A stretch of DNA of 20,486 nt from positions 1-20,486 of IMG/VR virus record IMGVR_UViG_3300050138_000042; one strand, given 5' to 3'. This document shows positions 1,840-20,486 of the stretch, one piece after another. A program made the position numbers and the translations under genes. The first letter of the stretch is position 1; each line of letters begins with the position of its first letter. Below the pieces are notes generated by a model, which did no database searches, was not told the DNA's origin, and was given only the letters and a program-made list of their open reading frames with translations. This stretch comes from a virus.

Positions 1840-3795
1840 ATGCCTTATCAACCGCCGACGTTAGTGACAAGCACGCTCATAGGGAAGGATAACTATGAGG
1901 ATATTTGCACGTTTATAAAAGATCAGGTTGCGCATCTAGATCGGCGGTTGGATACTTTTAGGAAAGAGAAGCTTCCTGAGTATGTGAGGCTTTACAAGGC
2001 GCGCCCGAAGAATGCAAACGTCGATTGGCCGTGGCCCGGCGCTGCTAATTTGGTGATTCCGATTATCGGAACGTATTCTGATGAGCTTCTGAGCCGCGTA
2101 ATGGGTGGAATTTGGATGTACGATCCACTTTGGGCAGCGACAATTAGTGGTGATATACCATCTAAGGATGGAGAAGAACTTAAACTTATTATTCAAAACT
2201 TCCTAATGGATATGGCGTATGCGCCGGATGAGCTTGATCTTTATAGAGTAGAGCAATCCTCCTTTCACAGTGCGATTAAGTACGGTACGGGTATGATCTA
2301 CGCGCCGTATGAGTATGAGACAGAGTATCAGCGCGTGTATAAGAGCGGCGGTGAGTCAGATACGTCTGATGTTATATCGGTAGATGAAGAGTATACTAAG
2401 ATCGACGGCCCCGCCCCTAGACTAATGCCGCTTAATCGTTGCGTGTTTGATCCTTCTGTCCCGAAGCTTGAAGATATGAAGATGCATGGTCATATCGAGT
2501 CGTTGAATGTATGGGACATTCAAGATTTAAAAGCGAAGTCGCCGTATTATAAGCAGGCGGATATAGACTTCCTGCTTAACAGCCCTGACGCGGCGCAAGA
2601 AACTGAGATGGAGATTGAGATTAATTCTCAGTTTGGGATTGACAGTAGCGGCATAGACACAGGCGCAGCGAGATGGTATATTTACAATCTCTGGTTCCAA
2701 TTCCGTTGCGGCGGAAAAGCGTATTCTTTTAATGCGCGTTATCACAAACGTAGTGAGAGAATACTTTGGATTACCTTCAACAACTATCCAAAGAACATGA
2801 AGCCATATCAGGACATGAAGCTGGCTTATGATGACGAATCCTACCTTGGAACGGGTTTCGCTGAGATGTTGCACATTGCCCAAAAAGAAGTCTCTAACAA
2901 TAACAACTGGAGAACTAATAATCGTAATTATGCTATGCTCGGAGCATGGCGAATTGATCCAGAAAGCAAGCTTAGCTCCATGCTTGACATTTTTCCAGGA
3001 GTCGGAATACCTGCTAGGAAAGATGAAGTCGAGTATCTCAAGATCGGAGCTGACCTCGGTTATTCTGATGGACCTGATCAGTTCCACATGGCAGTCGCCA
3101 AGGAGCGAGTAGGAGTTGATCCTGCTATGGGTGGAACGGGTGGAGGGATAGTAAATCCGAAGCGTGGAATTTACAGCGCCGCGGGTACGAGCATGGTTAT
3201 GAGTCAGCAGAATAATAGGAATAACCTTCGCACAGGTGATATGCGCTCGGCGCATGTAAAGTTAGCGATGAAGTTCCTGACGATGTATTCGTCGTTTGGC
3301 ATTGGAGATAAACTCAAGAAGTACGGCACACAGGCGGATAAACTTAAGAAAGCTTTGCAGATGTATAAAGAGGGTACTCTTGGCTTGCGCTTACGGCCCG
3401 CGTCTGCTAGTGCGAACAAAGAACTCGATCGCCAGAATGATATTCTCCTGTCGGATAAGGTAGACAGGTTCTACGCGCAGGAAGCTCAGATGGTACAAGC
3501 CATCATGACTCAAGGTATAACGCCTGAGCTTCAAAAGCTTTATATGGATCAGCTACTCGGTGCAAGAGCACTTATGAATACGCTCTTGCGTAACTTTAAC
3601 AAAGATAATACTGAGACTGTCCTCCCGGATATTAGCGGTATTATTGAATCAGTACAGCAAGCTGCAAAAGCGGCAAGCGGAGTAGGAGCGGGAAATGGAA
3701 ATCAAAACGGTGGGAGACCTAATCCCATACAGAGCGTCCCTCAAGGAGCTATGGGAGAAGGAGGAGTTCCAGCCAGTAATGGCCCTGTTCAATAG
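1840..3795 (+). CDS. Portal protein (head-tail connector)
   Basis: A 651-residue protein expected to form the ring at one capsid vertex through which DNA enters and leaves, and on which terminase and neck proteins dock. The N-terminal part contains DWPWPGAANLVIPI (about residues 62-75), a pattern characteristic of podovirus-type portals. A long alpha/beta body and helical segments follow. The C-terminal region (about 530-620) is helical with an RQNDILLSDKVDRF stretch. The last about 45 residues are Gly/Asn/Pro/Gln-rich and probably disordered. The length fits large portals of podoviruses. The gene lies between terminase/holin genes and a scaffold, as expected. Its final 101 bases are also read in another frame by the next gene. 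The function is confident. The family is not assigned beyond podovirus-like. Confidence 0.9.
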   Translation: MPYQPPTLVTSTLIGKDNYEDICTFIKDQVAHLDRRLDTFRKEKLPEYVRLYKARPKNANVDWPWPGAANLVIPIIGTYSDELLSRVMGGIWMYDPLWAATISGDIPSKDGEELKLIIQNFLMDMAYAPDELDLYRVEQSSFHSAIKYGTGMIYAPYEYETEYQRVYKSGGESDTSDVISVDEEYTKIDGPAPRLMPLNRCVFDPSVPKLEDMKMHGHIESLNVWDIQDLKAKSPYYKQADIDFLLNSPDAAQETEMEIEINSQFGIDSSGIDTGAARWYIYNLWFQFRCGGKAYSFNARYHKRSERILWITFNNYPKNMKPYQDMKLAYDDESYLGTGFAEMLHIAQKEVSNNNNWRTNNRNYAMLGAWRIDPESKLSSMLDIFPGVGIPARKDEVEYLKIGADLGYSDGPDQFHMAVAKERVGVDPAMGGTGGGIVNPKRGIYSAAGTSMVMSQQNNRNNLRTGDMRSAHVKLAMKFLTMYSSFGIGDKLKKYGTQADKLKKALQMYKEGTLGLRLRPASASANKELDRQNDILLSDKVDRFYAQEAQMVQAIMTQGITPELQKLYMDQLLGARALMNTLLRNFNKDNTETVLPDISGIIESVQQAAKAASGVGAGNGNQNGGRPNPIQSVPQGAMGEGGVPASNGPVQ

Positions 3796-6021: not shown

Positions 6022-6978
6022 ATGCCTCAAGTACGAGCGAAATATCCTCAATTAATGCAGCCGGGGCTAAAGAAGATTTACTTCGATAGCCTCGACAACC
6101 AGCTTAAAGCTTCTGACTATCCGAAGGTTTTTAATGAGATGGATTCGGATAGTGAGTATGAGCAAGAGCTGGAAATGGCGGGCGTTACTGCTCTTTATGA
6201 GAAGCCCGAAGATGCCTCAACTGCTTATACAGAGATGAAGCAGGGCGGTTCAAAACGTGTGATTCATCTTACGTATTCTTTGGGTATTCGAACATCCAAG
6301 GAATTGTATGATGATGACAAGTACGGTCTGATTAAAAAGGGACCGACGATTCTCGCACGTTCTGCTGCTTTCACTCAAGAGATGGTAGCTTGGAATGTAT
6401 TCAATCTCGGCTTTACGTCCGCGGTTACTACGTTTGATGGGCTTTCTCTCTTTAACAATCAGCACGCACTGATTGGCGGCGCGCAGGCTACGAATTTAGC
6501 ACCGGGAATCGCTGGTGTTATTAGCGCGGCGGGTACTTATCCCAATCGTCCGGCAGTGGATGTGGATTTCTCAGTAGCAGGGCTTCAGCTTGCTACTAAC
6601 CACGCCGCCCGTATGATTGATAACATGGGCTTCCCGATTCGTCTGCGCTGGACGAATCTCGTGACGCCACCGGAACTTCGGTTCCTTGTACGAGAGATTC
6701 TCGGATCTCCGGGCAAGCCTTATACTTCTGACAACACGATTAACTCGTTGCTGCCGGAGGATTATAAGAACATCGAAGTACCGTGGCTGAACAGTCCTAG
6801 CGCATGGTTCTTGATTGCGGATAAGAAAGATACTGCTCTCCAAGTTCTACATCGTGAGCGCCCGACTACTGATTTCGATGACGATTTTGATACTGATGCG
6901 ATCAAGCAGAAGACTCGTCTTCGTATGTCAGCATGGTGCCCACGTTGGCAGGGAGTTTGGGGTACTCAAGGACCGTAA
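6022..6978 (+). CDS. Major capsid protein, Mu gpT-like HK97-fold
   Basis: A 318-residue protein that should assemble the icosahedral head shell. GAAGGAG (6007-6013) lies 8 bases before the ATG. The N-terminal arm is followed by YTEMKQGGSKRVIHLTYSLG (about 70-89), TSKELYDDDKYG (about 93-104) and a helix ending NVFNLGF (about 127-133). These are followed by FDGLSLFNNQHALIGG (about 140-155). The order of a strand, a charged DDxYG turn, a spine-like helix with VFN, and then DG-LF-xxH is the signature seen in Mu gpT-type major head subunits. The length is typical, and no N-terminal delta domain or maturation protease is seen, in keeping with a separate scaffold. The gene is followed by two tandem stem-loops, which may limit transcription of downstream genes relative to the capsid. 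Confidence 0.9.
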   Translation: MPQVRAKYPQLMQPGLKKIYFDSLDNQLKASDYPKVFNEMDSDSEYEQELEMAGVTALYEKPEDASTAYTEMKQGGSKRVIHLTYSLGIRTSKELYDDDKYGLIKKGPTILARSAAFTQEMVAWNVFNLGFTSAVTTFDGLSLFNNQHALIGGAQATNLAPGIAGVISAAGTYPNRPAVDVDFSVAGLQLATNHAARMIDNMGFPIRLRWTNLVTPPELRFLVREILGSPGKPYTSDNTINSLLPEDYKNIEVPWLNSPSAWFLIADKKDTALQVLHRERPTTDFDDDFDTDAIKQKTRLRMSAWCPRWQGVWGTQGP

Positions 6979-8428: not shown

Positions 8429-10771
8429 GTGGGCAAGGTTAAAACAGAAGAACTTGACAACGGTAACATTGCTGTCGAGATTACATATGGTGGACTAGAA
8501 GCTCCTTATGGCGGCGTGGATACGTCTGCGCCGCCAGCTTATATTGATCCGAGATGTTTTACAGACTCTGATGGGTTCTTAGTAGTTAACAACAGACTTG
8601 TTGCAGTAGCGTTTGAAAAAGTCACCACGCCTACTCTTTGGTTTGGTGACGCTACTATACAGCTTTTGAAGTTTGGAACGTTTTATAACTCCACGTTTGG
8701 ACAACTTAACTATGCTTTGGGATATAAAGCTATCCCTTTCGCTGGTCCGCCGTCGGGAGTTACTTATAATTTTTATATAACCTCATGGCTTCCTGATAAT
8801 CTACTGATCTTCAATGATGACAACATCCCTTACACTTTGTTTGACTCAGTATCTCTTCCAACGCCAGCGTCGATAACGCTTGGAATTATTGGCACTAACG
8901 CACCAGCGCCGGGCGGAGGAACAGGAGCGGCGGGTAATGTGTTGACGGTTGGAGCAGGAGGGTTGCTCCTAACGCTTGACTTATCTACTAGCGCCGGTAC
9001 AGGCTATGGTGTTAATGACATTGTAGAAGTAACTCAACCTGGAGCAGGTGGCGGATGGATTATTGTTAATAGTATCGGTGGTGGCGGGTCAATTGCTACT
9101 TTCACAGTAGCTTCTCCTGACAGTTCAAACTTCGTAGCTGGACAGCCGTGGATTGCTGGCGTAGACACACTTAATTCTAGTTGTGTTCTTAAGATCATAG
9201 GACCAGGTGGTACAACTACACACACTGTTAATACGTGGCTTGCCTCTACGAAAGCGGAAATTGTTGCCGCTATGGTAAGTGCGATTAACGCAACTGATCC
9301 TAATGTGTTTGCATCTACGACTGTGGATGGGTTCTCTATCGTACTTACGGCATTAGCTGCTTATGCAGGAACTACTGGAAATGCTATAACAGTGCAGGAT
9401 TTATCTGTAAATCGAGTTCCTACTTCACCGCCGCCGTTTTACTTCGAGTGTAGAACTGTAGCATCTCTTAGCGGCGGAACTAACGCTGCGACTTTTAATG
9501 CTCTTCGTGTTATTCCTACTCCTATTTCATCAGCAGACGTAGGCGGTACGATCTACTTCGCTGGAGTTGGGCCGTTTATTTTGAAGTATAGCGGTCCTGG
9601 AAACTTCTTTGTCTCGACTTCTGAGAAAGGAGTTGGAGTTATTAGGAAGTTCGCAGGCTCCCTAATTGGCTTAAGAGATATACCGCAGCTTGGAGAGATT
9701 CTCCAGAATCAAGATATGATCTTCGCTTGGAGTGTAGCGGGAGAGCTTGATATTTGGAGTCCGCTGGATGTTAACGGTGATGTTACAGGAGCTGGTTTCG
9801 AGCAGATTGCGGATATAGGAGATTATCTTTCGGGGCTTATTATAGCCGGAGGAACGGCTTTTATTATCCGCTCACAAGGAGTTAGTTATGCGACTCCTAC
9901 TGGGAATGCGACGCTTCCTTTTGCTATAAATCATATTGGTTTGGGCGATCAGGGAGAGGGTTCTCAGACTTCGGCACTTTGCTGTCAGTATGACCAGATT
10001 GGTGCGTTTGTAGGAAATACGGATATTTTCCAAGTTGGGAGTAATATCTCATCTATTGGTAAAAAGATCAAGACTGCTCTCTTTACAGCGCTACAAAGTT
10101 TTGAACTGTTTTTGGATAGCAACGCTTGTTCAGTCTATCTCGGTGGCGAGACTTTTCCACTTGTAGCGTTCTTAGTAGATGGAACTGTTTATCTCTTCGA
10201 TACCGGCAACGGTACGTGGATGACTGTTAGTGTTCCTACGTATGCTACGTTTGCGCAAGCATTGCTTGGAACATTCGCTGCGAAGAATATTTTTGCTTCT
10301 CAAGATCAGTTTCAGCAAACCTCAATGATGCTTGGACTTCAGCAGACAGGGCAGGTGCCTGCCATTTATGCGCTGACTGAGACAGTGAAGAATAATAACT
10401 CAATCTCTGCTGGACAGGATATTTTCTTTCCGGCGGAGGAGTTGCTTTTTGGTAGAGATGTGACGATTGATGCATTGTATATTTCGTACAATGCTCAAGT
10501 GTTTACAGGTACGATGCAAGTTAAGTTTTATATAAGTGGGCAGCTGTTCAAAACACTTAGTATTTTCGGCTCGGCAACGCCGGTGCTTAATGATACTCCG
10601 ACAGAGATTCAGATATTTCCTGATAACACAACTGATAGTTCTGGAGTTTTCACAGCTCACTCGCCGCAGCTTGAGATTCAGATTTCTGAAGCAAACGCGC
10701 ACGATAATATAATCCGCTTTCCTAAGATCACAATGTTCGGATCGTTTGATCCAAAACAAAGGCCAGTATAA
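8429..10771 (+). CDS. Tail nozzle / DNA-stabilisation protein, beta-propeller
   Basis: A 780-residue protein with a GTG start, supported by GGAG (8419-8422) 6 bases upstream and by the 12-base gap from the previous gene. The part from about residue 360 on carries propeller-like repeats, including RDIPQLGEILQNQDMIFAWS (about 416-435), ELDIWSPL (439-446), AFIIRSQGVSY (477-487) and GAFVGNTDIFQVGS (525-538). A 'becomes ..WS..G..d.WsP' blade is the hallmark of P22 gp10-like and T7 gp12-like proteins, which form the short tail nozzle and seal the DNA. An inserted Gly-rich section at about 155-330 resembles repeats of phage adhesins. The C-terminal section (about 670-780) is a separate beta sandwich. 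The next gene starts inside its stop codon (TAATG), which supports a shared neck module. Confidence 0.8.
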   Translation: MGKVKTEELDNGNIAVEITYGGLEAPYGGVDTSAPPAYIDPRCFTDSDGFLVVNNRLVAVAFEKVTTPTLWFGDATIQLLKFGTFYNSTFGQLNYALGYKAIPFAGPPSGVTYNFYITSWLPDNLLIFNDDNIPYTLFDSVSLPTPASITLGIIGTNAPAPGGGTGAAGNVLTVGAGGLLLTLDLSTSAGTGYGVNDIVEVTQPGAGGGWIIVNSIGGGGSIATFTVASPDSSNFVAGQPWIAGVDTLNSSCVLKIIGPGGTTTHTVNTWLASTKAEIVAAMVSAINATDPNVFASTTVDGFSIVLTALAAYAGTTGNAITVQDLSVNRVPTSPPPFYFECRTVASLSGGTNAATFNALRVIPTPISSADVGGTIYFAGVGPFILKYSGPGNFFVSTSEKGVGVIRKFAGSLIGLRDIPQLGEILQNQDMIFAWSVAGELDIWSPLDVNGDVTGAGFEQIADIGDYLSGLIIAGGTAFIIRSQGVSYATPTGNATLPFAINHIGLGDQGEGSQTSALCCQYDQIGAFVGNTDIFQVGSNISSIGKKIKTALFTALQSFELFLDSNACSVYLGGETFPLVAFLVDGTVYLFDTGNGTWMTVSVPTYATFAQALLGTFAAKNIFASQDQFQQTSMMLGLQQTGQVPAIYALTETVKNNNSISAGQDIFFPAEELLFGRDVTIDALYISYNAQVFTGTMQVKFYISGQLFKTLSIFGSATPVLNDTPTEIQIFPDNTTDSSGVFTAHSPQLEIQISEANAHDNIIRFPKITMFGSFDPKQRPV

Positions 10772-11193
10772 TGCCAAGGTCATATAATCCGAATGCGTTT
10801 GCTCAGAGTCTTGATCCTTTGCATAGACAGTTTGTGCAATCAGTAGATCAGACTCTTAATGGCGGCGTAGATATGGGAACGCCGACAGGGAATGCACCGG
10901 ATAGCGCGGGAGTTAATGCGGGTGTTTATACTAAGTTTAAGCAGGGAAATAGCAGCGGTGTTTTAATCAGGATCGCAGCGCAGGGAGTTACGGATACTGG
11001 TGCGGATTATGAATGGGGCGCGGTTAATACGGGTATCGTTATTAATCATGGTTTGCTCAGGAAGCCAATAGGCTTTAAGGTAGTAGACATGGACAAGCCT
11101 GTACAAGTTTACAGAACAACACCACCGGATAAGCAACAGATAACTCTTGCGCCGACGGATAACACAGCTTCAGTAACAGTTTACGTGTTTTAG
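10771..11193 (+). CDS. Small structural protein of the neck/tail module
   Basis: A 140-residue protein, coupled to the nozzle gene by a TAATG overlap. The N-terminal third is polar (FAQSLDPLHRQFVQSVDQTL). A Gly-rich linker follows. The C-terminal about 55 residues read GIVINHGLLRKPIGFKVVDM, QVYRTTPPDKQQITLAP and a final VTVYVF. The 'NHGL.R.P.G..vv' strand followed by a 'LTL..s....v.v.vF' ending is common in small podovirus virion proteins that lie between nozzle and adaptor genes. It is probably a tail or fibre-attachment component, but the exact role is unknown to me. It is not an enzyme, judging from its lack of conserved catalytic residues. Confidence 0.65.
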   Translation: MPRSYNPNAFAQSLDPLHRQFVQSVDQTLNGGVDMGTPTGNAPDSAGVNAGVYTKFKQGNSSGVLIRIAAQGVTDTGADYEWGAVNTGIVINHGLLRKPIGFKVVDMDKPVQVYRTTPPDKQQITLAPTDNTASVTVYVF

Positions 11194-11202
11194 GAGTTTG
11201 AG

Positions 11203-11943
11203 ATGGCTTTCACTGCTGGAGATTGTTTTGACGGAATTACCGGACTTCTAATGAACAGGACTGTTTCTCAAGCTTTGATGCTTGAAGAGATTCGTAAAGC
11301 TGTGCTTGAGTTTACTGAAGATTATAAGCATCCGCTTTTAGAAGCTACTGGACCGACTGTTTCTCTTGTAGCATTTCAAAATGTTTATAACCCTAACTTC
11401 TTTTTACAAGTTGCAGATGCTAACTTAGATGTTAACAAGGTTAACTCGTTTTGGATTTATAATAATGGCTTTATTACACCAAGCTCTAGTAGCGAGACAA
11501 ATTCAGGTTATGAACTTAAGTTTATGGCTATTAAAGATATTGAAGTACTGCTGAATATTTCTGGAATTCCGTTGTACTGGAGTAGGAATAATAACCAAAT
11601 CTACATCACGCTTCCAGATCAAAGCTATCCTGTATATATGCGTTATCAGAAACAACATCCTCTGGCGAATGTGGTGAACGGTTTTGTAAGTGGTACTCCG
11701 ATCTTGATGGCGGACACGTGGCAGGAGATTATTGAGTACGCCGCTGCTATGCGCGTGGCTCCTAAAGTTAATCTTGCCTCTAAGAAAACAGAACTTCACA
11801 CCGCTCTCTACGGCGATCAAAAGTTTCAGACATCTTCTGGTATCGAAGGCGCACCGGGTCTAATCTTTCAGCGTACTTCACAACGTAATCGTGACCAAGT
11901 AACAACCACCCGCAGGCTGCGCCTGAGAATGGGAAGCGTGTAA
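11203..11943 (+). CDS. Head-tail adaptor, P22 gp4/T7 gp11-like
   Basis: A 246-residue protein expected to bind the portal ring and link it to the nozzle. AGGAG (11192-11196) overlaps the previous stop and lies 6 bases before the ATG. The N-terminal part is helical (LEEIRKAVLEFTEDYKHPLL, about residues 24-43). A beta section with IYITLPDQSYPVYMRYQKQH (about 130-149) follows. After it come a helix EIIEYAAAMRVAPKVN (about 174-189) and KKTELHTALYGD, typical of the gp4-like adaptor core. The C-terminus is Arg-rich (TTTRRLRLRMGSV), consistent with an extended tail that contacts portal or DNA. The gene follows the nozzle gene by one small ORF, as in related phages. The fold is a good guess, though its conserved residues are few. 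Confidence 0.72.
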   Translation: MAFTAGDCFDGITGLLMNRTVSQALMLEEIRKAVLEFTEDYKHPLLEATGPTVSLVAFQNVYNPNFFLQVADANLDVNKVNSFWIYNNGFITPSSSSETNSGYELKFMAIKDIEVLLNISGIPLYWSRNNNQIYITLPDQSYPVYMRYQKQHPLANVVNGFVSGTPILMADTWQEIIEYAAAMRVAPKVNLASKKTELHTALYGDQKFQTSSGIEGAPGLIFQRTSQRNRDQVTTTRRLRLRMGSV

Positions 11944-12488
11944 TGGCTACCGTGCCTATAGCTCCTCCTCAACTTCAAAACGTGGCAAAAGCTAATAGTA
12001 CAGTTACTGGACTTGTCCCTGCTGGACAGTTTAATGCTGTAGCTCCACCAATAAGAACTGTCTATGATACAGGTCCATTGAAAGGTAATTCAGTACCTGG
12101 AATGCTTGACGTAGGTAATATTGACCTTAATCAACGTCCATCAATTAAGAATGCCGATGGTACGTCGAGTTCGATTTTTTCTATGACTGTACCGATAGGA
12201 AAAGAGGGTCAACCTTTAGAGTGGGGGCATAAAGATATTACAGGTTATGCTTTGGTTCCTTCTATAGCGGATGGGAAATTTTTAACCAAAGATGGTAAGA
12301 TGCCGGATCAAAGCAATAAAAAAGCTATGCAAGCTTTGGAAGATGAGGCTACTAAGTATTATACTAAAACTAAACAGCACTTAGGTATCTTCAAAACTAT
12401 GCAAGATGCCAACTCTTATGCTGCTAGGACACATGCTTATGGGCCAAAAGGTCCTACAAAAGATAAAGTTTATGCTCCTTCGTATTAA
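11943..12488 (+). CDS. Stand-alone 'GNIDLNxRP' domain protein, probable virion/internal protein
   Basis: A 181-residue protein whose ATG overlaps the adaptor stop (TAATG). Residues 1-50 are Pro/Ala-rich and flexible. The core starts VGNIDLNQRPSIKNADG (57-73). It continues through SIFSMTVPIGKEG (77-89) and ALVPSIADG (103-111), and ends in EDEATKYYTKTKQHLGIFKT (133-152) with ANSYAARTHAY (156-166). The order GNIDL.xRP.v.NxDGs.Sti.S...g.evLiPt...A...Y..t..hLG.F.t...A..YA..lH is a small domain I know from many phage proteins. There it often sits within large internal virion or transglycosylase proteins. Here it is a separate gene. Its function is unknown, but a peptidoglycan- or DNA-ejection-linked role is plausible from its usual partners. 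The domain match is visual and fairly strong. Confidence 0.7.
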   Translation: MATVPIAPPQLQNVAKANSTVTGLVPAGQFNAVAPPIRTVYDTGPLKGNSVPGMLDVGNIDLNQRPSIKNADGTSSSIFSMTVPIGKEGQPLEWGHKDITGYALVPSIADGKFLTKDGKMPDQSNKKAMQALEDEATKYYTKTKQHLGIFKTMQDANSYAARTHAYGPKGPTKDKVYAPSY

Positions 12489-12502
12489 GAAAAGAGTGTG
12501 TA

Positions 12503-13252
12503 ATGGCTACTAACTCAATGGTTCCGTATTCTAATCCGGCGGGAAAAAACCAAACAGCGCCGTCTGTACCTATGGCGAATGCGGGTGCGGTATCGCATGT
12601 GCCTGCTCCTACGCCTCTTGCTCCTACGGCTACGGCGACAGCGAATCCGTTGATCCCTGCCACTTCTACAGTAACACCTGGAACTCCTACAGTGCCTCAG
12701 ACAGTAGGAACTGATCCAGCACAGTACCAACAACTTCAGGATATTTACGGTGCTTCCGGAAATTCGTTGTATGAGTTTATGCAGAGTCTTGATGGAACAA
12801 GTTCTGCGACTCTTCAAGATTATATTAAGAGTCTTGGACCACAGTTTGCTAAATCAGGGGCTAATTTGGATGCTTCTCTTGGAGCAGGTGGAGTAGGAGC
12901 TAATTCAAGCGTGAGTGCTTTAGCACATGCTGATCTTGGCTCGCAGGAAGATAGTCTCATAGCAGATGAGAGTGCGAAGCTTCTTCAGAGTCAGGAAGGC
13001 TTGCAGGCTAATCTTCTTGAAAGTACTCTTCCTTCCGCCGAAAAGCAAGTCTCTGACTCTAGCGGTTGGAATACATTCGCACAAATTCTAAGCGGTATTG
13101 GCGGATTAACTAGTTCTGTTATGGGACTTGGCGATCTTACTGGCGGCTTGAGTAGTTTGTTTAAAAGTGCTACTCCAGCAGCAACAGTTCCTACTTCTAC
13201 CTTCGGGAATGAGGATGCTCTTCTTCAAGGTATCAATCAGGGAGGTATCTAA
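12503..13252 (+). CDS. Probable internal/ejection protein, Ala/Ser/Gly-rich
   Basis: A 249-residue protein with a weak RBS (AAAGAG, 12491-12496), lying 14 bases after the previous stop. Residues 1-70 are Pro/Thr/Ala-rich and low in complexity (PAPTPLAPTATATANPLIPA). The middle section (about 74-175) is helical, with a small-residue hinge GAGGVGANSSVSALAHADLG (about 127-146) and LLQSQEGLQANLLE. The C-terminal third contains a hydrophobic Gly-rich stretch (FAQILSGIGGLTSSVMGLGD, about 193-212) that could insert into a membrane. A 'GVG.NSSV.ALA.AD..SQ' motif followed by a GW.. and a Gly-rich hydrophobic tail is familiar from podovirus proteins placed after the adaptor. An ejection-channel component like T7 gp14 is a reasonable guess. 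No enzyme motif is seen. The next gene overlaps its stop as TAATG. Confidence 0.6.
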   Translation: MATNSMVPYSNPAGKNQTAPSVPMANAGAVSHVPAPTPLAPTATATANPLIPATSTVTPGTPTVPQTVGTDPAQYQQLQDIYGASGNSLYEFMQSLDGTSSATLQDYIKSLGPQFAKSGANLDASLGAGGVGANSSVSALAHADLGSQEDSLIADESAKLLQSQEGLQANLLESTLPSAEKQVSDSSGWNTFAQILSGIGGLTSSVMGLGDLTGGLSSLFKSATPAATVPTSTFGNEDALLQGINQGGI

Positions 13253-14754
13253 TGGAAAGCTGGAACTCTGCGATGCCGGGATTTGAAAGCAGTATGCCTC
13301 AAAGTGTACCTGCGGCGCAACCGTCACAGGGGAATGATTTGATTTCTAGCATTCTCAAAACTGTCTCAAGTCCTGTCGATCCGAATCTTGTGCGTCAAGC
13401 GAATATGCCTATTGAGGGTACTCATGCGGCTTCTTTGCCGACGAGTTTGAGTACTCCAGTAGGGCCATATCAAACTGCGCCTTTGGATCAGCGTCAGGTT
13501 ACTGGACGGAAAGCTGCGAATCGTCAAGGGATTTCTAATGCCTTTACCGCCGCAACTAATGCGCTTGGAACTATTGTTACCAAGGAAGCGCAGATCAAGC
13601 AAGGTCATATACGTGACGCAGCGACCAAAGTTATCATGGCGCAACAAGGTATTGACGAAGCTAAAATAGCTCACGATCAAGCTATCACAGCGGGTGATGC
13701 TGCGGCAGCGTCTAAGTATCAGGAAGCGATTCAAAAGAACCAGCAAGCTCGTGATGCTATCTTTGCTGATCCTAAAATGCGTAAGGCGCTTCAGAAGGGG
13801 TTTGATATTAGCTATACGGACCCTGCCTCTAACAAAACTGAAGAACACGCTGCCGTGCAGGAAGCTCTTAAAACTGCCAAGAGTATGCAAGAGAAGCGTG
13901 AGATTATGAAAGCACAGCAAGAGAAGCAGAATCAAGCTTCTGGTTCTGCTATGGGTGCGGCGTTTGAGAAGTCAATGCCTCAAGGTATGGCGGCAAATCA
14001 ATTAGCACAAGCGCAACTTGGTCAGGTGCTGGCGGATAAGAAGATTCAGCAAGAAGCTATGAAGAACTTGTTAACCTTTCAAGCTTCTACTTATCGCTCA
14101 GACAAAGCTTACAACGCTACGCAGATGCGTACTATCGCACAAGGTATCTTAAAACAAGCTACTTTTGCTCATCAAGATCAGCAGATGGCACAGAGATTTG
14201 CCCAAGCGCAGAAAATGCTTGGGCAACGCTTCGCGCAGGAGAACAGCTTAGTTTATCTTCGCGCTAAGACTAATAGACAACTTGAGAATGATGTTTATAC
14301 GGATAAGGAATTCGATCCACTCACGATGAAGACAAAGAGTGAGAAGGTATCGCAAACGTATAACAGCAGCTACCTCGCCGATCAGAATGACATTGCGAAG
14401 CTTATAGTAGCGAGGGATAAGGAATTCTCAAGCGGTTCTAAACCGAGTTGGTATAAGAACGGACAACTTGCTACTGACGATCCGGCGGCTAAGTCTTATG
14501 AAGCATACAATCTCCAAATCCGCAATCTCGAATCAATGCGTGATTTGGATAAGCAAAAAGCTGATCACTACGAGCAAGTTTCTAAACAGATTTCACAAGC
14601 TTTTCCAAGTCTTACGGGGGTAGGAAATGACACCGGAAGTAGCGACGGTTCCAGCAGCCAATCCGATGCAGTCGGAGGAAGTGACGACTTTACTAACCCC
14701 TTCAACTGGCTCACCAGTGGCTCGGAAAGCGCCAACGCAGACGACGAGCAATAA
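13252..14754 (+). CDS. Gln/Ala-rich helical internal virion protein
   Basis: A 500-residue protein starting inside the previous stop (TAATG). Residues 1-80 are Ser/Pro-rich and disordered. Residues about 88-350 are almost entirely helix, rich in Gln, Ala and Lys (AQAQLGQVLADKKIQQEAMK; DQQMAQRFAQAQKMLGQRFA), consistent with long coiled coils. A polar section follows, then a Ser/Asp/Gly tail (about 448-475) that is low in complexity. The length, helical nature and position among ejection-type genes suggest an inner-core or ejected protein. I see no transglycosylase, peptidase or polymerase motif. The last 128 bases are shared with the next gene in the +1 frame. A structural rod or scaffold for the internal core is an alternative reading. 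Confidence 0.6.
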   Translation: MESWNSAMPGFESSMPQSVPAAQPSQGNDLISSILKTVSSPVDPNLVRQANMPIEGTHAASLPTSLSTPVGPYQTAPLDQRQVTGRKAANRQGISNAFTAATNALGTIVTKEAQIKQGHIRDAATKVIMAQQGIDEAKIAHDQAITAGDAAAASKYQEAIQKNQQARDAIFADPKMRKALQKGFDISYTDPASNKTEEHAAVQEALKTAKSMQEKREIMKAQQEKQNQASGSAMGAAFEKSMPQGMAANQLAQAQLGQVLADKKIQQEAMKNLLTFQASTYRSDKAYNATQMRTIAQGILKQATFAHQDQQMAQRFAQAQKMLGQRFAQENSLVYLRAKTNRQLENDVYTDKEFDPLTMKTKSEKVSQTYNSSYLADQNDIAKLIVARDKEFSSGSKPSWYKNGQLATDDPAAKSYEAYNLQIRNLESMRDLDKQKADHYEQVSKQISQAFPSLTGVGNDTGSSDGSSSQSDAVGGSDDFTNPFNWLTSGSESANADDEQ

Positions 14755-17272
14755 TTATCACTCCCCTAATAATCCATATGGCGTGGGCCTTGATGAGCGT
14801 AAGGCTCTAATGCAGAGGATTGCATTTGCTACGGACAAGCAGCCTATTCCAACATCCTCTTCTAAGTATGACTCCATAAACACTATGGAGCGTTCTCAGA
14901 AGGTTGAGGCGCTTAAGGATAACAAGCTTGATCCTACTCAGATTAAAGACCCGTATGATAAACTCGCACATGCTTTTAACCTGTGGACTGAACTAGGCGC
15001 GAAAGCTAAAGCGGCGCCGAATATTTCATTTACAGAACAACGTAAGATAGCAGAGAACTTTTACGATGGGATGCTTGCTCCTATATACGCTAACGATCTT
15101 AAGCTTGCTCCTATGGAAAAAGAACTCTGGATGAAGCAAGCGTATGAGCAGGCGCTTGGGTATAAGATTGAGAATGCTTATGGGAACGACTGGCTTCAGA
15201 GTATGCGACATGGTTGGAATTCTGGACTTGCTGCTACTGCACGAGCTGCTCATGCTGTAACTACGATGCTTGGTAATGGTACGGATGATGCTATTGCGCT
15301 GGCGAAGCAGTTTGCTGAAACGACTGTTAAGAACATGCAGCCACAAAGAAACGGTTGGCATGATAATCTCGCCGACTTACATAACGCTGTTGCTAATGTG
15401 AAGCATGAGCATACTGACTTTGGAGATGCTGTTTTACGCGGTGCGGTTATACAAGATGAGAAGCGTCAGTTCTGGGCGGATGCTATTCCTTCAAGGGATG
15501 GGATGCTTAATAAGTCTACTGATTTTGTAGCCGAGCAAGTAGCTCAAGCGCCGGTATATGCAGCGATGTATCTTGGAGCTAAGGGGCTTGGAGTAGGCGG
15601 AGGAACTTCTTTAACAGAACGCCTGATGAGTAATCCTGCTGGACGTAAGATTGTACCGTATCTCCTTGCTGGCGGAGAAGGGCTTGCTTACGGCGCGGCG
15701 GTTTCAAAGCAGAATGATTCCGGTGAGAAGTACAGGGATGCAATTGGTTTTATGACTTTTCATGGATTATTTGACGTAGGCGGTATGGGTTTGAAGAAGC
15801 TTTCTGATATGTTTCCGGCGGGCTCAAAGCAACTTGAGCTTTTGAAGCGCCGACAGGATGAACTTGAGCTTAGGATGGATGGAAATAAAACAGCTGATCC
15901 TGTAGAACAGTATAACATGCACAAGAAGGAGACTGCTAATAACATCGCAGTAGTTGGAATTCCTGGGCAGTTGGCTATACACGCCGATGCGGTAGGACAT
16001 TTAGCTGAGACTGAGGCTATGAGCAGGACTGAGCGAGTAACTTATGAAGCTAAGCTTCTGGAAGAAGACCCTGCTCGCTGGAGTCCGGTGTTGAGTGCAT
16101 CGCGGTATATTAGACAGCTTCTTCCTAGTGGTATGAGGTATAGTGAGCTTTTGCAGTATCCTCATAGTGAAGCGGCGACAAAAGTGCGTGAAGGGCTTAA
16201 TAGGCTGGTGTTTGATTCTGCTTCTGAGATGAATACACTCGTTAAGGATATGCCAGAAGCTTCTCAGCAGCAAGCTAAGAAGCAACTCAAAGATCCAAGC
16301 GCAAAACATACTCTTGAGTTTTATGTTAATAAGGTTAAGAAGGACGTAGAAAAAGATCCTGGAGCCGCAGCGTTGTTAACTTCTGAGCATATTCAAGCAG
16401 CGGCGGAGAAGATGTATGGAGAGGATCTTCAGAAAGCAGCACAGCACGCCGAGAAAGAAGCGGGAGCTTCTAAAGTAGAACGAGCTAACAACATCGGACA
16501 GCGTGTTAAGCCTGCTATGAAGATTCGTAGTGAGCGTACTGTTAGTGGGAAGAATGTAAGTGTACGCTATCAGATTGAACCTGACTACAAAGTACGCCTC
16601 GCCGAGCATCAACGCGCCGCTAAGAAAGCAGGAATGGGCTTAACAGAATGGTTTCGTAATCTCTCAGATGAGGATTTTGGAAAAGATCTTTCTGATTATT
16701 TTTATCCGAAGGCTCTTAAGAAAGCGGAGATATTCTTTGAGAATCAGCATACCAGAGAAGGAATGCAGAATCCTAACTTCTTAGCTTTTATGCATAACTA
16801 CAGCGATTCTATGCCGAAAGAGTTTGCTGATGAGCTTAAGAGTCGGTTTATAGATACTGCAAAGGTACAGAAGTATATCAAAGGCCAGAATCTCACAGAA
16901 CCGCAGCTTGATTATTATGCTAAGGCTATGCATAATCATGTTGATAATTTCCTAGGCTCTGGACGCTGGCCGAATGAAACTAATATCTTCAGAAGCTCGA
17001 ATGAGAATATGTTCAAAAGCACAGTGTATCAGCGGGAGCTTCTTATTGAGAAAGGTGCTCAGGAGATTAAGAATCTTAAAGATGCTTTCTCTGGGAATCC
17101 GAAAGAGCTTAAAAGTGCTCTTGGTATCTACGGAAAACTTGCCGGCGCTAGACTTGAGGAGTTTGACGTAGCCTCTCAGAAACGTAATTCCCAAGAAGTT
17201 ATCCGCTCTCTTGATGACCAGATTTCTGATCTTATCACTGCCAATAAGAAGTATGAAAGGTGGAACTACTAA
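14627..17272 (+). CDS. Large helical internal/ejection protein (N-terminal overlap with upstream gene)
   Basis: An 881-residue protein. The ATG at 14627 follows an in-frame TAG at 14621-14623, so it is the first possible start. GGGGG and TAGGA precede it, although the spacing to AGG is short (2 bases). Later ATGs (14666, about 14810) would remove the overlap of 128 bases but have no clear RBS. Residues 1-60 are polar and disordered. The rest is mainly helical, with KLAHAFNLWTELGAKAKA at about 112-129. A hydrophobic Gly-rich region (AAMYLGAKGLGVGGG, 312-326; IVPYLLAGGEGLAYGAAV, 342-359) could contact a membrane. Long charged coils fill about 400-881. No lysozyme, transglycosylase or RNA polymerase signature is seen. 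The size and place fit a DNA-ejection protein. The next gene starts in its stop (TAATG). Confidence 0.6.
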   Translation: MTPEVATVPAANPMQSEEVTTLLTPSTGSPVARKAPTQTTSNNYHSPNNPYGVGLDERKALMQRIAFATDKQPIPTSSSKYDSINTMERSQKVEALKDNKLDPTQIKDPYDKLAHAFNLWTELGAKAKAAPNISFTEQRKIAENFYDGMLAPIYANDLKLAPMEKELWMKQAYEQALGYKIENAYGNDWLQSMRHGWNSGLAATARAAHAVTTMLGNGTDDAIALAKQFAETTVKNMQPQRNGWHDNLADLHNAVANVKHEHTDFGDAVLRGAVIQDEKRQFWADAIPSRDGMLNKSTDFVAEQVAQAPVYAAMYLGAKGLGVGGGTSLTERLMSNPAGRKIVPYLLAGGEGLAYGAAVSKQNDSGEKYRDAIGFMTFHGLFDVGGMGLKKLSDMFPAGSKQLELLKRRQDELELRMDGNKTADPVEQYNMHKKETANNIAVVGIPGQLAIHADAVGHLAETEAMSRTERVTYEAKLLEEDPARWSPVLSASRYIRQLLPSGMRYSELLQYPHSEAATKVREGLNRLVFDSASEMNTLVKDMPEASQQQAKKQLKDPSAKHTLEFYVNKVKKDVEKDPGAAALLTSEHIQAAAEKMYGEDLQKAAQHAEKEAGASKVERANNIGQRVKPAMKIRSERTVSGKNVSVRYQIEPDYKVRLAEHQRAAKKAGMGLTEWFRNLSDEDFGKDLSDYFYPKALKKAEIFFENQHTREGMQNPNFLAFMHNYSDSMPKEFADELKSRFIDTAKVQKYIKGQNLTEPQLDYYAKAMHNHVDNFLGSGRWPNETNIFRSSNENMFKSTVYQRELLIEKGAQEIKNLKDAFSGNPKELKSALGIYGKLAGARLEEFDVASQKRNSQEVIRSLDDQISDLITANKKYERWNY

Positions 17273-19206
17273 TGGGCAGCGCAGGAATGAATATAGCGGA
17301 GAGTCTTCTCTCTAAAGGCGCCGAACATTTAGAAGGACTGTTTAATCGCGGTGTTTCCAACGCTGAAGGTAGCCGCGCTGGAAGAGGGGCGCTTAATCTT
17401 ATCGGTAATCAAAGCTGGGAGATGGGACTTACTGAGGGCGGACAAGCTATTGAGAAGATGCATAATGAGTATATCAGAGTGCATGACGCTTCTCTTGGGA
17501 CTACTAATAAGCAGCTTCAAGCTGTTAGAGACTTTCATGCTAACAGTCCTGCAGCGCGTCAAGCTTTAGATCCTGCAAAAGCTACAATGATGGACTATCA
17601 CCTTAAAGCCGCCGCTGAGAATCATCCGGCGCAGCAGGTGACAAGCCAACTTGTGAGTGATCCTGAAGTTGCTAAAATGACACAGGAGCAGTATCTTATT
17701 CGCGGTCAAAAAATAGCACGTCTCAACGCTATCGCTGGAAGCTATGGAGATAAGTTTAAGAACGCTACGCCTATCATTGCGCGAATGCTTCAAGACTCTG
17801 ATCCTCGTGTCGTGAGTAATGCTCACAGACTTGCGGATATAGTATCAAACCAAGTTCGTGACACTAAAATGTTCTCCGATAGCGGTGGGACAAATACTGA
17901 ACAAAGCGCCGCGAAGTATTACATGAATAAGGCATTTAAGAAAGCGAATAAGGTTTATGAGAAAGCGGAGATGGGACAGCGGATTCCGCTTCTTGACACA
18001 GAGAAAACTTACACGCGCCCTTCTGATACTGAGCGCACCGCGCATCGTGTTATGGATACGATGTTAATTCCTTTTGTAGCTGTAAAGCATATTGGGCAGA
18101 TTTTTAATCCTATAGCTTCTAGTCCTCTACCTGCACTTGGAGCAGCACTTCTTCGCATGGACCATGCTGGAATGAGTAAGACGATTGACGCTTCTGGGAT
18201 TGTAGCATCTACTATGTGGCGGGCAATGTATAGAGATGTGCTTGGTGAGAGTGGACATGTTGCGGAGTGGACTAAAAGCCCAACTCTTGGTAAGATCATG
18301 GCTCGTACTTTTCACTCACCCGGTATGACATTTGTACGCCGCACACAGATTAACCTTGCTGGTTCTGTAGGATTTCACAGTGCTATCTACTGGGCGCATA
18401 ACTTCGCGGAGAATGGTTCTCGCATCGCCGAGATGCGGTTAAAAGAAATGCAGATTAATCCTGCGGATGTGGTTAAACAAGGCGGAAAGCTTACAGATGA
18501 TCAGCTTCAAAAAGGAGTGTATCACTTCGTTAATAACAGAGAATTCATGAATCGTTCAATCGACAATGCTCTTTATCAGAATCGTGATGTAATCACTCGA
18601 AGTGCTTATATGTATCATGCTTTTGTAAACAACCAAGCTTCCTTTATGATGCGTGATCTTTTGAAGATGGCAAAGGTTGGAGATTACAAAGGCATAGCAC
18701 AATTCGTCGGGACGCTTGGTGTTTTGTTTCCTGCCGTTGCGGCGCCTATTCTTGGAAGTGCGGATGTGCTTTTAAGAACAGCTTCTTTAAAGCAGGCGAC
18801 GACTGATCTACAGGATAAGTATAGAAAGATGGCAAAGCCTAATAGCGCCGGAGAGTGGCTTGGTAATTACTTACAGCTTGTTTCTCATCTTGGTGCGGCG
18901 GGAGTATATTTCAACTATATCAATGCCATCAAAGCAAACCGTCTAGCTGCTGCTTTAGCTGGTCCCATGATTGGAGCAGCTACAACAGACCTAACAGACG
19001 CTGTTCATGCTGGCTTTATGCCAAGTGCTAAAGGCGAACGCAACTTTGCTCCTATCGAGCGTGATGTTTTGAAGCAAACAATTCCTGTCTTCGGCAGCGC
19101 CTTAGCACATCACTTTGCTCCTACTCTCGCCGAGAAGAAAGCACGTGGAGAAGGTGCACACAAAGGTTTAACTCTATCACGCCAACGTAGTGGCAGAAGG
19201 AGGTAA
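17272..19206 (+). CDS. Large internal/ejection protein with hydrophobic segments
   Basis: A 644-residue protein. The ATG at 17272 is preferred over the in-frame GTG at 17260, because it overlaps the previous stop as TAATG, like several neighbours, and GAAAGGTGG (17255-17263) lies 8 bases before it. The N-terminal about 250 residues are helical and polar. Hydrophobic stretches occur at about 263-290 (MLIPFVAVKHIGQIFNPI), 473-500 (FVGTLGVLFPAVAAPILG) and 535-570 (LAAALAGPMIGAATTDLTDA). These could span or insert into the host membrane. The C-terminus is basic (GLTLSRQRSGRRR), as if to bind DNA or phosphate. With the gene before it, it forms a pair that together matches the size of the largest ejection proteins of podoviruses. 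I see no catalytic motif. The role is inferred from position and hydrophobicity. Confidence 0.58.
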   Translation: MGSAGMNIAESLLSKGAEHLEGLFNRGVSNAEGSRAGRGALNLIGNQSWEMGLTEGGQAIEKMHNEYIRVHDASLGTTNKQLQAVRDFHANSPAARQALDPAKATMMDYHLKAAAENHPAQQVTSQLVSDPEVAKMTQEQYLIRGQKIARLNAIAGSYGDKFKNATPIIARMLQDSDPRVVSNAHRLADIVSNQVRDTKMFSDSGGTNTEQSAAKYYMNKAFKKANKVYEKAEMGQRIPLLDTEKTYTRPSDTERTAHRVMDTMLIPFVAVKHIGQIFNPIASSPLPALGAALLRMDHAGMSKTIDASGIVASTMWRAMYRDVLGESGHVAEWTKSPTLGKIMARTFHSPGMTFVRRTQINLAGSVGFHSAIYWAHNFAENGSRIAEMRLKEMQINPADVVKQGGKLTDDQLQKGVYHFVNNREFMNRSIDNALYQNRDVITRSAYMYHAFVNNQASFMMRDLLKMAKVGDYKGIAQFVGTLGVLFPAVAAPILGSADVLLRTASLKQATTDLQDKYRKMAKPNSAGEWLGNYLQLVSHLGAAGVYFNYINAIKANRLAAALAGPMIGAATTDLTDAVHAGFMPSAKGERNFAPIERDVLKQTIPVFGSALAHHFAPTLAEKKARGEGAHKGLTLSRQRSGRRR

Positions 19207-19207
19207 T

Positions 19208-19387
19208 ATGAGCGGACAATCAGCAAATCTTACTCTGAAAGAAGCTTGCGCTATGCAGCATCGTGTTCAAGCTTCTGGCAGTCATGCAAATAACAATGGC
19301 GGCGGCATGAAAATGTCGAGCAAAGTTACTAAGAAACCCCACACAGAAGCAAAGTACGAACCCTCTAAGATGGAAGGCGGAGAGTAA
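19208..19387 (+). CDS. Tiny basic ORF of unknown function
   Basis: A 59-residue protein. AAGGAGGT (19197-19204) is a near-perfect ribosome binding site overlapping the previous stop, 3 bases before the ATG at 19208. This start is preferred over the in-frame GTG at 19190. The sequence begins MSGQSANLTLKEACAMQHRV (1-20) and then has an Asn/Gly-rich stretch (HANNNGGGMKMSS) and a Lys-rich tail (KVTKKPHTEAKYEPSK) that ends acidic (MEGGE). Apart from one short helix it looks disordered. The strong RBS argues that it is expressed. A small DNA- or RNA-binding or virion protein is possible, but nothing recognisable supports any particular role. The next gene starts 4 bases after its stop. Confidence 0.6.
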   Translation: MSGQSANLTLKEACAMQHRVQASGSHANNNGGGMKMSSKVTKKPHTEAKYEPSKMEGGE

Positions 19388-19391
19388 AAAC

Positions 19392-20486
19392 GTGAGAATA
19401 GCAATGTCCTCGTATACTGGAATGGGCGCATGGTTTGTCCTTCGGCTTCTCGCAGAAGGCCATAAGGTAGACTATTATCTCTCAGAACAGAAGTACGAGG
19501 ACGTGCTATCTGGACTGATCCCGCGTCCTAGAATCTTAAACCTCGATCACAGGAAAACTCAACAAGGCTATGGCTATCCGTCGTATAAAGGGTATGACCT
19601 TTCGCTTTTTGACCTTACAGGTCGTGCTAAACAAGCGGATGCTTCTAAAGCAGAAGCGCCTACGATTGGAGACGGTAGTTTCGAGCATTGGTTGGAAGAT
19701 GACAGAGAAGCCGGGATTCAGGCTATGGAGCAGAGTAAGATAAATGTACCTCCTTATCAGAAGTTTAATACTCCAGCAGAGGCTAAGGTATACATACAAA
19801 AAGAAGATAAACGTTACGTATACAAACCATTCACAGTTGGTAGTGACATGCAGGACACAGCTACTACGTATGTGGCGAAAGATTCGAAAGATTTGCTGAG
19901 GGTTATAGATCAGCTTTTTAGCATTTCTAAGAGAGCGCCGTTTATTCTCCAAGAGTTCATCGAAGGCACCGAGGCTTCTGTAGCAGGCTTTTTCAACGGT
20001 ACAAACTTTTATACGCTTTCTTGCACACTTGAAGAAAAGAAGTTTATGAATGATAACAAAGGACCAAACACAGGATGCTCTGGGAACTTGGTTTTTGCTA
20101 TCTCTGAGGAGAGCAAGCTTTATAGAGACGGCTTGAGACGCGCTATCCCTTTTCTGCAAGAATCAGGCTTTACTGGCATGATTGATCTTAATACCATCGT
20201 CACGGAAGGAACAGCGTATGGACTCGAATGGACACCGCGGTTTGGTTATCTTGCGGATAGCACTATTGCTACCATGTATGGTACCGGTTATGGTGATATG
20301 CTTGCTGCTGTGGCCTCTGGCGGAGTACCAGAGATTAAATGGACAGCACCTTTCGGATATTCCGTACAATTAAGTATTCCGCCATATCCTACGGAAGTAC
20401 GACTTCCTAAGTCTAAGGATGTACCGATAGATGGCATAGACCCGTCGGATATCGAGCAACTTATGCGGTGTTATCTGTATGACGCG
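19392..20486 (+). CDS. PurD/GARS-like ATP-grasp ligase, 3' end outside window
   Basis: This ORF has 365 codons and is open at the window end. The GTG start at 19392 follows GGAG (19379-19382) with 9 bases of spacing, and VRIAMSS then matches a first beta strand. ATP-grasp enzymes couple ATP hydrolysis to ligation of a carboxylate to an amine, and bacterial PurD (glycinamide ribonucleotide synthetase) is the closest pattern. The visible order is a Rossmann-like N-domain (about 1-80), LEDDREAG (101-108) and VPPYQKFNTPAEA (119-131). It continues with the ATP lysine K145 (YVYKPF), LQEFIEGTEASV (186-197), KGPNTG (223-228), GMIDLN (262-267) and GLEWTPRFG (277-285). A GARS-C-like strand (FGYSVQLSIPPYPTE, 321-335) follows. 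The AAGKG loop of PurD is replaced by TVGSDMQ. The second metal Asn of ExN is Thr (E279, T281). The GNGGREHA motif is absent. It is probably a diverged ligase with another substrate. Confidence 0.85.
   Translation, partial: MRIAMSSYTGMGAWFVLRLLAEGHKVDYYLSEQKYEDVLSGLIPRPRILNLDHRKTQQGYGYPSYKGYDLSLFDLTGRAKQADASKAEAPTIGDGSFEHWLEDDREAGIQAMEQSKINVPPYQKFNTPAEAKVYIQKEDKRYVYKPFTVGSDMQDTATTYVAKDSKDLLRVIDQLFSISKRAPFILQEFIEGTEASVAGFFNGTNFYTLSCTLEEKKFMNDNKGPNTGCSGNLVFAISEESKLYRDGLRRAIPFLQESGFTGMIDLNTIVTEGTAYGLEWTPRFGYLADSTIATMYGTGYGDMLAAVASGGVPEIKWTAPFGYSVQLSIPPYPTEVRLPKSKDVPIDGIDPSDIEQLMRCYLYDA

Follow-up and report, generated by a model that had tools for sequence, protein, structure and literature searches.

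A diverged PurD-like ATP-grasp ligase encoded as a core late gene by uncultured podovirus-like phages

The stretch of DNA analyzed here (the window; 20,486 bases of an IMG/VR virus fragment) ended in a gene for a PurD-like protein, which would be a catalytically competent, phage-specific ATP-grasp carboxylate–amine ligase, a PurD descendant or ancient PurD sister that acts late and is most likely virion-linked (probability about 0.6 for this reading as a whole). The initial annotation had called it a repurposed PurD-like ligase and no ordinary GARS, which was upheld by the full gene, the tree, the fold, the neighbours, and the substrate residues.

The ligase gene and its kinship to PurD

The ligase gene and the small gene preceding it were as follows:
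19208–19387, + strand: small protein of 59 aa (MSGQSANLTLKEACAMQHRVQ...MEGGE), with a conserved N-terminus and a variable K/G/S-rich tail, mostly disordered
19392–20486, + strand: PurD-like ATP-grasp ligase, starting at GTG and continuing for 365 codons without a stop up to the window end (contig edge)

The window portion represented the N-terminal 365 of about 435 residues, or about 84% of the ligase gene, and a Shine–Dalgarno-like GGCGGAGAG was located just 5′ of the GTG, overlapping the 3′ end of the small gene. The motifs quoted in the initial annotation, LEDDREAG (about residues 101–108), EFIEGTEAS, KGPNTG, and LEWTPRFG, were each found in this ORF; the GGREHA motif and the AAGKG loop were both absent from the window ligase, as had been reported, and the position of Asn in the PurD ExN was occupied by Thr281, again as claimed. 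The GARS-C portion was truncated by the window end; the full-length relatives (mostly 420–440 aa) terminated in the PurD-type YRxD motif (MQYRTDI).

The Pfam search of the window ligase gave GARS_A (1.5e-12) and ATP-grasp_3 and no other family. The NCBIfam purD match reached 2e-13, with a TIGR00877 (PurD) score of 49.9 bits, below the 288-bit cutoff, and the matches of the PDB sequence search were nearly all to PurD structures (2e-11). At the sequence level, the similarity to PurD exceeds chance by a wide margin.

An AlphaFold2 model was built for L157, a complete relative 82% identical to the window ligase, from a 62-sequence alignment (pLDDT 93; pTM 0.91), and it recovered the ATP-grasp/PurD fold that had been expected from the initial annotation. 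In the Foldseek comparison of this model with the PDB, the top 15 matches were all GAR synthetase chains (TM 0.68–0.76; E to 3.7e-28), and the next family, biotin carboxylases, began seven orders of magnitude further down, at 2.5e-16. With the family profile, A. aeolicus PurD was matched across profile positions 68–408 (1.2e-40), C-terminal YRxD included; model and profile together displayed the N, ATP-grasp, and C domains of the PurD fold. In the tree, 63 phage proteins and 26 bacterial PurDs (the latter from just two phyla, those of the MAGs) were split by a 100/100 branch of about 3.8 changes per site, placing the phage proteins in a separate clade outside PurD, in line with the initial annotation. 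On this sequence and fold evidence, the ligase family is a PurD descendant or an ancient PurD sister.

Distribution of the family

An IMG/VR scan with the ligase gave 38 loci with 29–79% identity; in a further, alignment-based scan, 90 stretches matched, of which the best 80 were retained. One bacterial-genome scan gave only four ligase loci, each on a MAG contig. Cellular homologues were considered and dismissed, the two MAG contigs examined in detail resembling phage contigs: L157 had the gene order virion gene, small gene, and ligase, while in L160 the ligase was followed by tail-fibre-like ORFs. One examined MAG contig was 47.7 kb long, with a ligase 80–82% identical to the nearest phage copies.

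Among GenBank phages, the only match over most of the ligase was MW202796 (42140–43468; unannotated; 27% identity), and the ligase was not detected by profile in capsid-sharing phage records (Alcaligenes QDWS535, HTVC023P, Caulobacter RW, and others). The PHROG search gave no named family (best match 2e-4, to a family of unknown function), and the viral structure library contained no full-length counterpart (best TM 0.45). The ligase family spans dozens of uncultured podovirus-like genomes (soil and bog phages), and no named description of it was found in the searched sequence and structure libraries or in a limited set of papers.

Two peculiarities of single contigs were recorded: (i) the ligase frame was split into two overlapping frames in the contig L035/L187, by assembly error or real frameshift, and was intact in the near-identical L017; and (ii) the 99,640-base contig G005, about twice the usual 48–50 kb, had a single ligase match and was a possible chimera or a larger relative.

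A core gene of the late operon

The following genes preceded the small gene in the window:
1–1320, + strand: terminase large subunit, 5′ end cut (phrog_38, 7e-33)
1840–3795, + strand: portal/head-tail connector-like protein (weak match to PHROG 332, E 0.005)
6022–6978, + strand: major capsid protein (30% identity to the annotated MCP of MW202796; NF045541, 1.2e-9)
11203–11943, + strand: conserved late gene, cluster c4, 246 aa, used as a ligase-independent query in the core-gene test
14627–17272, + strand: late protein, cluster c12, 881 aa, presumed virion/ejection protein by position, start codon uncertain
17260–19206, + strand: late protein, cluster c11, 648 aa, presumed virion/ejection protein by position

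The relatives shared the gene order terminase, portal-like, capsid, other late genes, c12, c11, ligase, and large tail-spike-like genes, and the replication genes were located beyond the last of these on the opposite strand; several related contigs were circular at 48–50 kb with end overlaps of 80–127 bases. The ligase position was retained in relatives down to 25–31% identity, and c11 was the constant upstream neighbour in near relatives. The initial annotation had described the ligase as lying next to ejection genes; the upstream placement stood, and the label is to be taken as positional, since c11 and c12 matched no known family in Pfam or PHROG.

The core-gene test was a search with c4, a late gene unrelated to the ligase, in which contigs continuing at least 8 kb downstream were counted. 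A PurD-like ATP-grasp protein (a remote homologue in one contig) was found in the same slot, 5.8–8.4 kb from c4, in 35/35 c4 contigs, which include several near relatives and do not amount to 35 independent events. The ligase is thus a core gene, never lost in the contigs that could be checked.

The remote version was seen in L241, where the usual ligase was replaced, in that slot and again downstream of the small gene, by an extremely diverged PurD-like ligase (25 bits), followed by a GNAT acetyltransferase. This copy had no Pfam match, and its kinship to the family is suggested by profile comparison, in which it aligned with the family along its length (96.6%); the two-sequence structure model, with a pLDDT of 40, was unusable. 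The ligases of L241 (17114–18424) and L252 (9911–11284) had 54% mutual identity and about 16% identity to the main family, and that of L252 adjoined an ORF read from its sequence as peptidoglycan-binding/lysozyme-like. In MW202796, lysozyme- and holin-like ORFs followed the ligase.

The replication module comprised a split family-A DNA polymerase with a uracil-glycosylase-like part, DUF3987, AAA_24, and PD-(D/E)XK proteins, and FtsK-like, VWA-like, and GroES/DnaJ-like proteins. Its individual members included (i) a conserved FtsK/SpoIIIE-type ATPase (G014, 11585–12802; 4.9e-28) and a VWA-like protein (G014, 10318–11181), both in the early module and both unusual for a podovirus-like genome; (ii) a GroES-like domain fused to a DnaJ-type zinc motif (G014, 23958–24497); and (iii) a uracil-DNA-glycosylase-like domain (1.6e-7) with a weak 3′–5′ exonuclease match (G008, 34693–35805), with a separate family-A polymerase alongside. 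When about 90 proteins of five relatives were screened against Pfam, no purine, base-modification, amidoligase, or amidotransferase genes were detected.

Active-site residues

The active site was mapped by comparing 62 phage relatives with 27 PurDs, the substrate contacts and residue roles of A. aeolicus PurD being those of PMC8880213. Three segments of the window carried the main residues:
20031–20079, + strand: E214-E-K-K...GPNTGC229 signature, in which E214 corresponds to PurD D212, K216 to PurD K214, and C229 to a PurD Gly
20184–20192, + strand: D265-L-N267, invariant in the phage family, Tyr/Phe-x-Gly in PurD
20226–20246, + strand: E279-W-T281-P-R283-F-G, with the metal Glu and acyl-site Arg retained and the ExN Asn replaced by Thr

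Six residues were kept in 62/62 phage proteins (PurD/phage numbering): E100/E102, K143/K145, E192/E194, K214/K216, E283/E279, and R287/R283. The replacements were (i) K103 by Arg in all 62 and E185 by Gln in 61/62; (ii) the glycine-binding D212 by Glu (E214) in 62/62 and the glycine-binding E292 by Ala, Cys, Ser, or Gly in 61/62, so that only Arg287 persisted (62/62) of the D212/R287/E292 glycine set (PMC8880213); (iii) N285 of ExN by Thr in 56/62 and D290, the Asp of RFGDPE, by Tyr in 59/62; (iv) the GPNTGG loop by GPNTGC (C229) in 61/62; and (v) the PurD Tyr/Phe and Gly by Asp265 and Asn267 in 62/62. E214, K216, and C229 were invariant or nearly so in the 62 relatives, their counterparts being D, K, and G in 27/27 PurDs. 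The PROSITE motif PS00184, R[LF]GDPEx[EQIM], which serves as a GARS criterion (PMC3261824), appeared as RFGY(D/L)A in the phages, its Asp and Glu being present in 26/26 PurDs. In total, at least 10 PurD-diagnostic positions or motifs were swapped or lost. The N-terminal GGREHA, absent across the 62 relatives, is taken by us to serve the phosphoribosylamine side, by comparison with PurT and PurK.

The features of the ATP-grasp superfamily were retained: the fold was present, K145, K216, E194, D265, and E279 were invariant, and ExN appeared as ExT with N267 invariant nearby. ATP-grasp proteins in general have an acidic residue on a kinase-like strand (PMC4431377), and D265 and N267 are therefore probably replacement ligands that rebuild the metal site. 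The ATP-site and acyl-site residues being invariant across proteins down to 25% identical, the ligase is probably an active enzyme, and the swapped positions point to substrates other than those of PurD.

The small upstream gene and competing readings

Directly upstream of the ligase, the relatives had a small gene coding for 38–97 aa; such an ORF (homologous or analogous) was present in most of the 55-row clade and also in L241. It was separated from the ligase by an inserted gene in L009, L010, L012, L015, L144, and L150; judged by sequence, the insert of L144 was an HNH-like endonuclease and that of L150 a LAGLIDADG-like protein, the other ORFs being unnamed. Codon position 3 was more variable than positions 1 and 2, a protein-gene signal. 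The small-protein sequences differed by clade (MSGQSAxLSLKEAKAMQERVQ, MxAPHxHTxxE, and MSFxGxxEDAKK), and in the main group the N-terminus was the conserved part and the tail was highly variable. A Pup-like GG-type C-terminus was considered for the window copy, which ends in MEGGE, and was dropped on account of the varying tail. The basal ligase lineages (L152–L156, L159, L039, and MW202796) had no small gene at that place, so the ligase does not strictly need one as its neighbour. The initial annotation of the ligase had made no mention of this small gene. The small protein may be a partner or a substrate of the ligase. The stronger form of this idea, that it is the substrate to which the ligase adds an amino acid or in which it closes an amide in a RiPP-like manner, is possible and rather doubtful: a conserved N-terminus with a variable tail resembles leader and core, and the gene stays upstream despite inserted genes and even where the ligase is extremely diverged (L241), but the basal lineages carry the ligase without it, no conserved Ser/Thr/Lys acceptor, Asp/Glu core motif, or C-terminus was found, the tails being wholly different between groups, and the fold is PurD-like, not RimK-like as in known graspetide ligases.

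It is very improbable that the protein is a working GAR synthetase raising host purine synthesis during infection. PurD homology and fold extend along its full length, the ATP-site residues and C-terminal YRxD are retained, and purine genes occur in other phages, e.g., purM annotated in HTVC023P; yet its 49.9 bits lie far from the 536–570 bits of the real PurDs of the same MAGs (90.7 bits for the match taken as the phage copy in one MAG), GGREHA, RFGDPE, and Glu292 are lost across the 62 relatives, no other purine gene was found among the relatives' screened proteins, and the operon is late, not early. Comparable losses (no GARS_N, lost Mg2+ sites, and lost RFGDPE Asp) led to the rejection of archaeal PurD-like proteins as GARS (PMC3261824). 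An ordinary PurD was rejected by score, residues, tree, and gene context together. Participation in phage DNA base or nucleotide modification, one of the targets offered by the initial annotation, is improbable: such modification is common among phages and the closest known relative of the ligase acts on a ribosyl amine, but the DNA-modification genes sought among the same roughly 90 proteins (hydroxymethylase, thymidylate synthase homologue, glycosyltransferase, base kinase, and deazaguanine genes) were not detected by Pfam, the gene belongs to the late operon outside the replication module, and the ligase lacks the N-terminal motif that probably acts on the phosphoribosylamine side. A search of the early module for DNA-modification or amidoligase/GATase partners likewise found none. 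The other targets then offered, a peptide or virion component, fit the late position better as candidates. A non-enzymatic structural or scaffolding PurD derivative would suit a location among presumed virion genes and the loss of several PurD residues; it is nevertheless quite improbable, as 62/62 sequences, differing by up to 75%, have kept the ATP, metal, and acyl-site residues unchanged, which pure scaffolding would not require.

Proposed function

For the preferred reading of an active, PurD-derived late ligase, the conserved residues suggest the following course: ATP and two metal ions would be held by E102, R105, K145, E194, K216, and E279, with D265 and N267 taking over from PurD Asn285; the carboxylate would be bound by R283 and E214 and converted to an acyl phosphate; and an amine would attack the acyl phosphate to give an amide. 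With Glu292 turned into a small residue and GGREHA lost, glycine is unlikely to be the acid and phosphoribosylamine unlikely to be the amine, judging by these residue changes. A late-operon gene that is never lost, with presumed virion genes before it and tail-spike-like genes after it, most likely has a virion-linked acceptor or product. The candidate acceptors are a virion protein and, for the main clade, the small protein whose gene precedes that of the ligase. This link may hold on the basis of gene position, c11 and c12 having no known family match, and a late-operon place is not proof of a virion target, as lysis and metabolic genes can occur there. The more specific account, in which a purine ligase was captured by phages and rebuilt as a late protein or peptide ligase modifying a virion protein or the co-encoded small disordered protein, is put forward tentatively, at somewhat under even odds.

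If true, that account would constitute a new class of phage protein modification, and if the activity is as predicted, these phages would rely, while assembling or being released, on a modification through an amide bond of which no description was found, and the residue switches would make its substrate directly testable. The ligase clearly illustrates how an enzyme type of central metabolism is put to other use in a virus, and such genes should not be annotated as purD or as auxiliary metabolic genes.

Comparison with known systems

In graspetide-type RiPP systems, a small precursor gene adjoins the ATP-grasp ligase; in the present family the picture is mixed, with a small gene upstream in most of the 55-row clade and none found there in the basal lineages. 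The R2K/CDC123 ATP-grasp peptide ligases, which occur in some phages and are predicted protein modifiers (PMC4431377, PMC7824862), are likewise phage ATP-grasp enzymes with a predicted role in protein modification; in Pfam, by contrast, the present ligase matched only GARS_A and ATP-grasp_3, and nothing in the viral structure library matched its full length. The LUZ24-like phage cluster consists of an ATP-grasp protein, an amidoligase, a COOH–NH2 ligase, and a glutamine amidotransferase (PMC3890496) and is also annotated in Alcaligenes phage QDWS535. It shares with the present family a podovirus-encoded ATP-grasp ligase of unknown substrate, but its ATP-grasp protein is shorter (about 219–291 aa) and belongs to the early module, where three further amide enzymes accompany it. 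The present ligase is a late-operon protein with no such companions, and QDWS535 gave no match to its profile.

The archaeal Hlac_1553 and rrnAC0307 (PMC3261824) are likewise PurD-like without GARS_N, the Mg2+-site residues, and the RFGDPE Asp; they are cellular and archaeal, and the likeness is one of description. From PurD/GARS itself (EC 6.3.4.13; PDB 2yw2, 2xcl, and 1gso), the phage ligase differs in having about 18% identity, in the loss of GGREHA, AAGKG, and RFGDPE, in the changes K103 to R, D212 to E, E292 to A, and N285 to T together with the new D265, N267, and C229, and in its location in a phage late operon with no purine genes found nearby, while the two share the fold, the N/ATP-grasp/C domain order, the ATP lysine, most glutamates, the GPNTG loop, the Glu and Arg of ExNxR, and YRxD.
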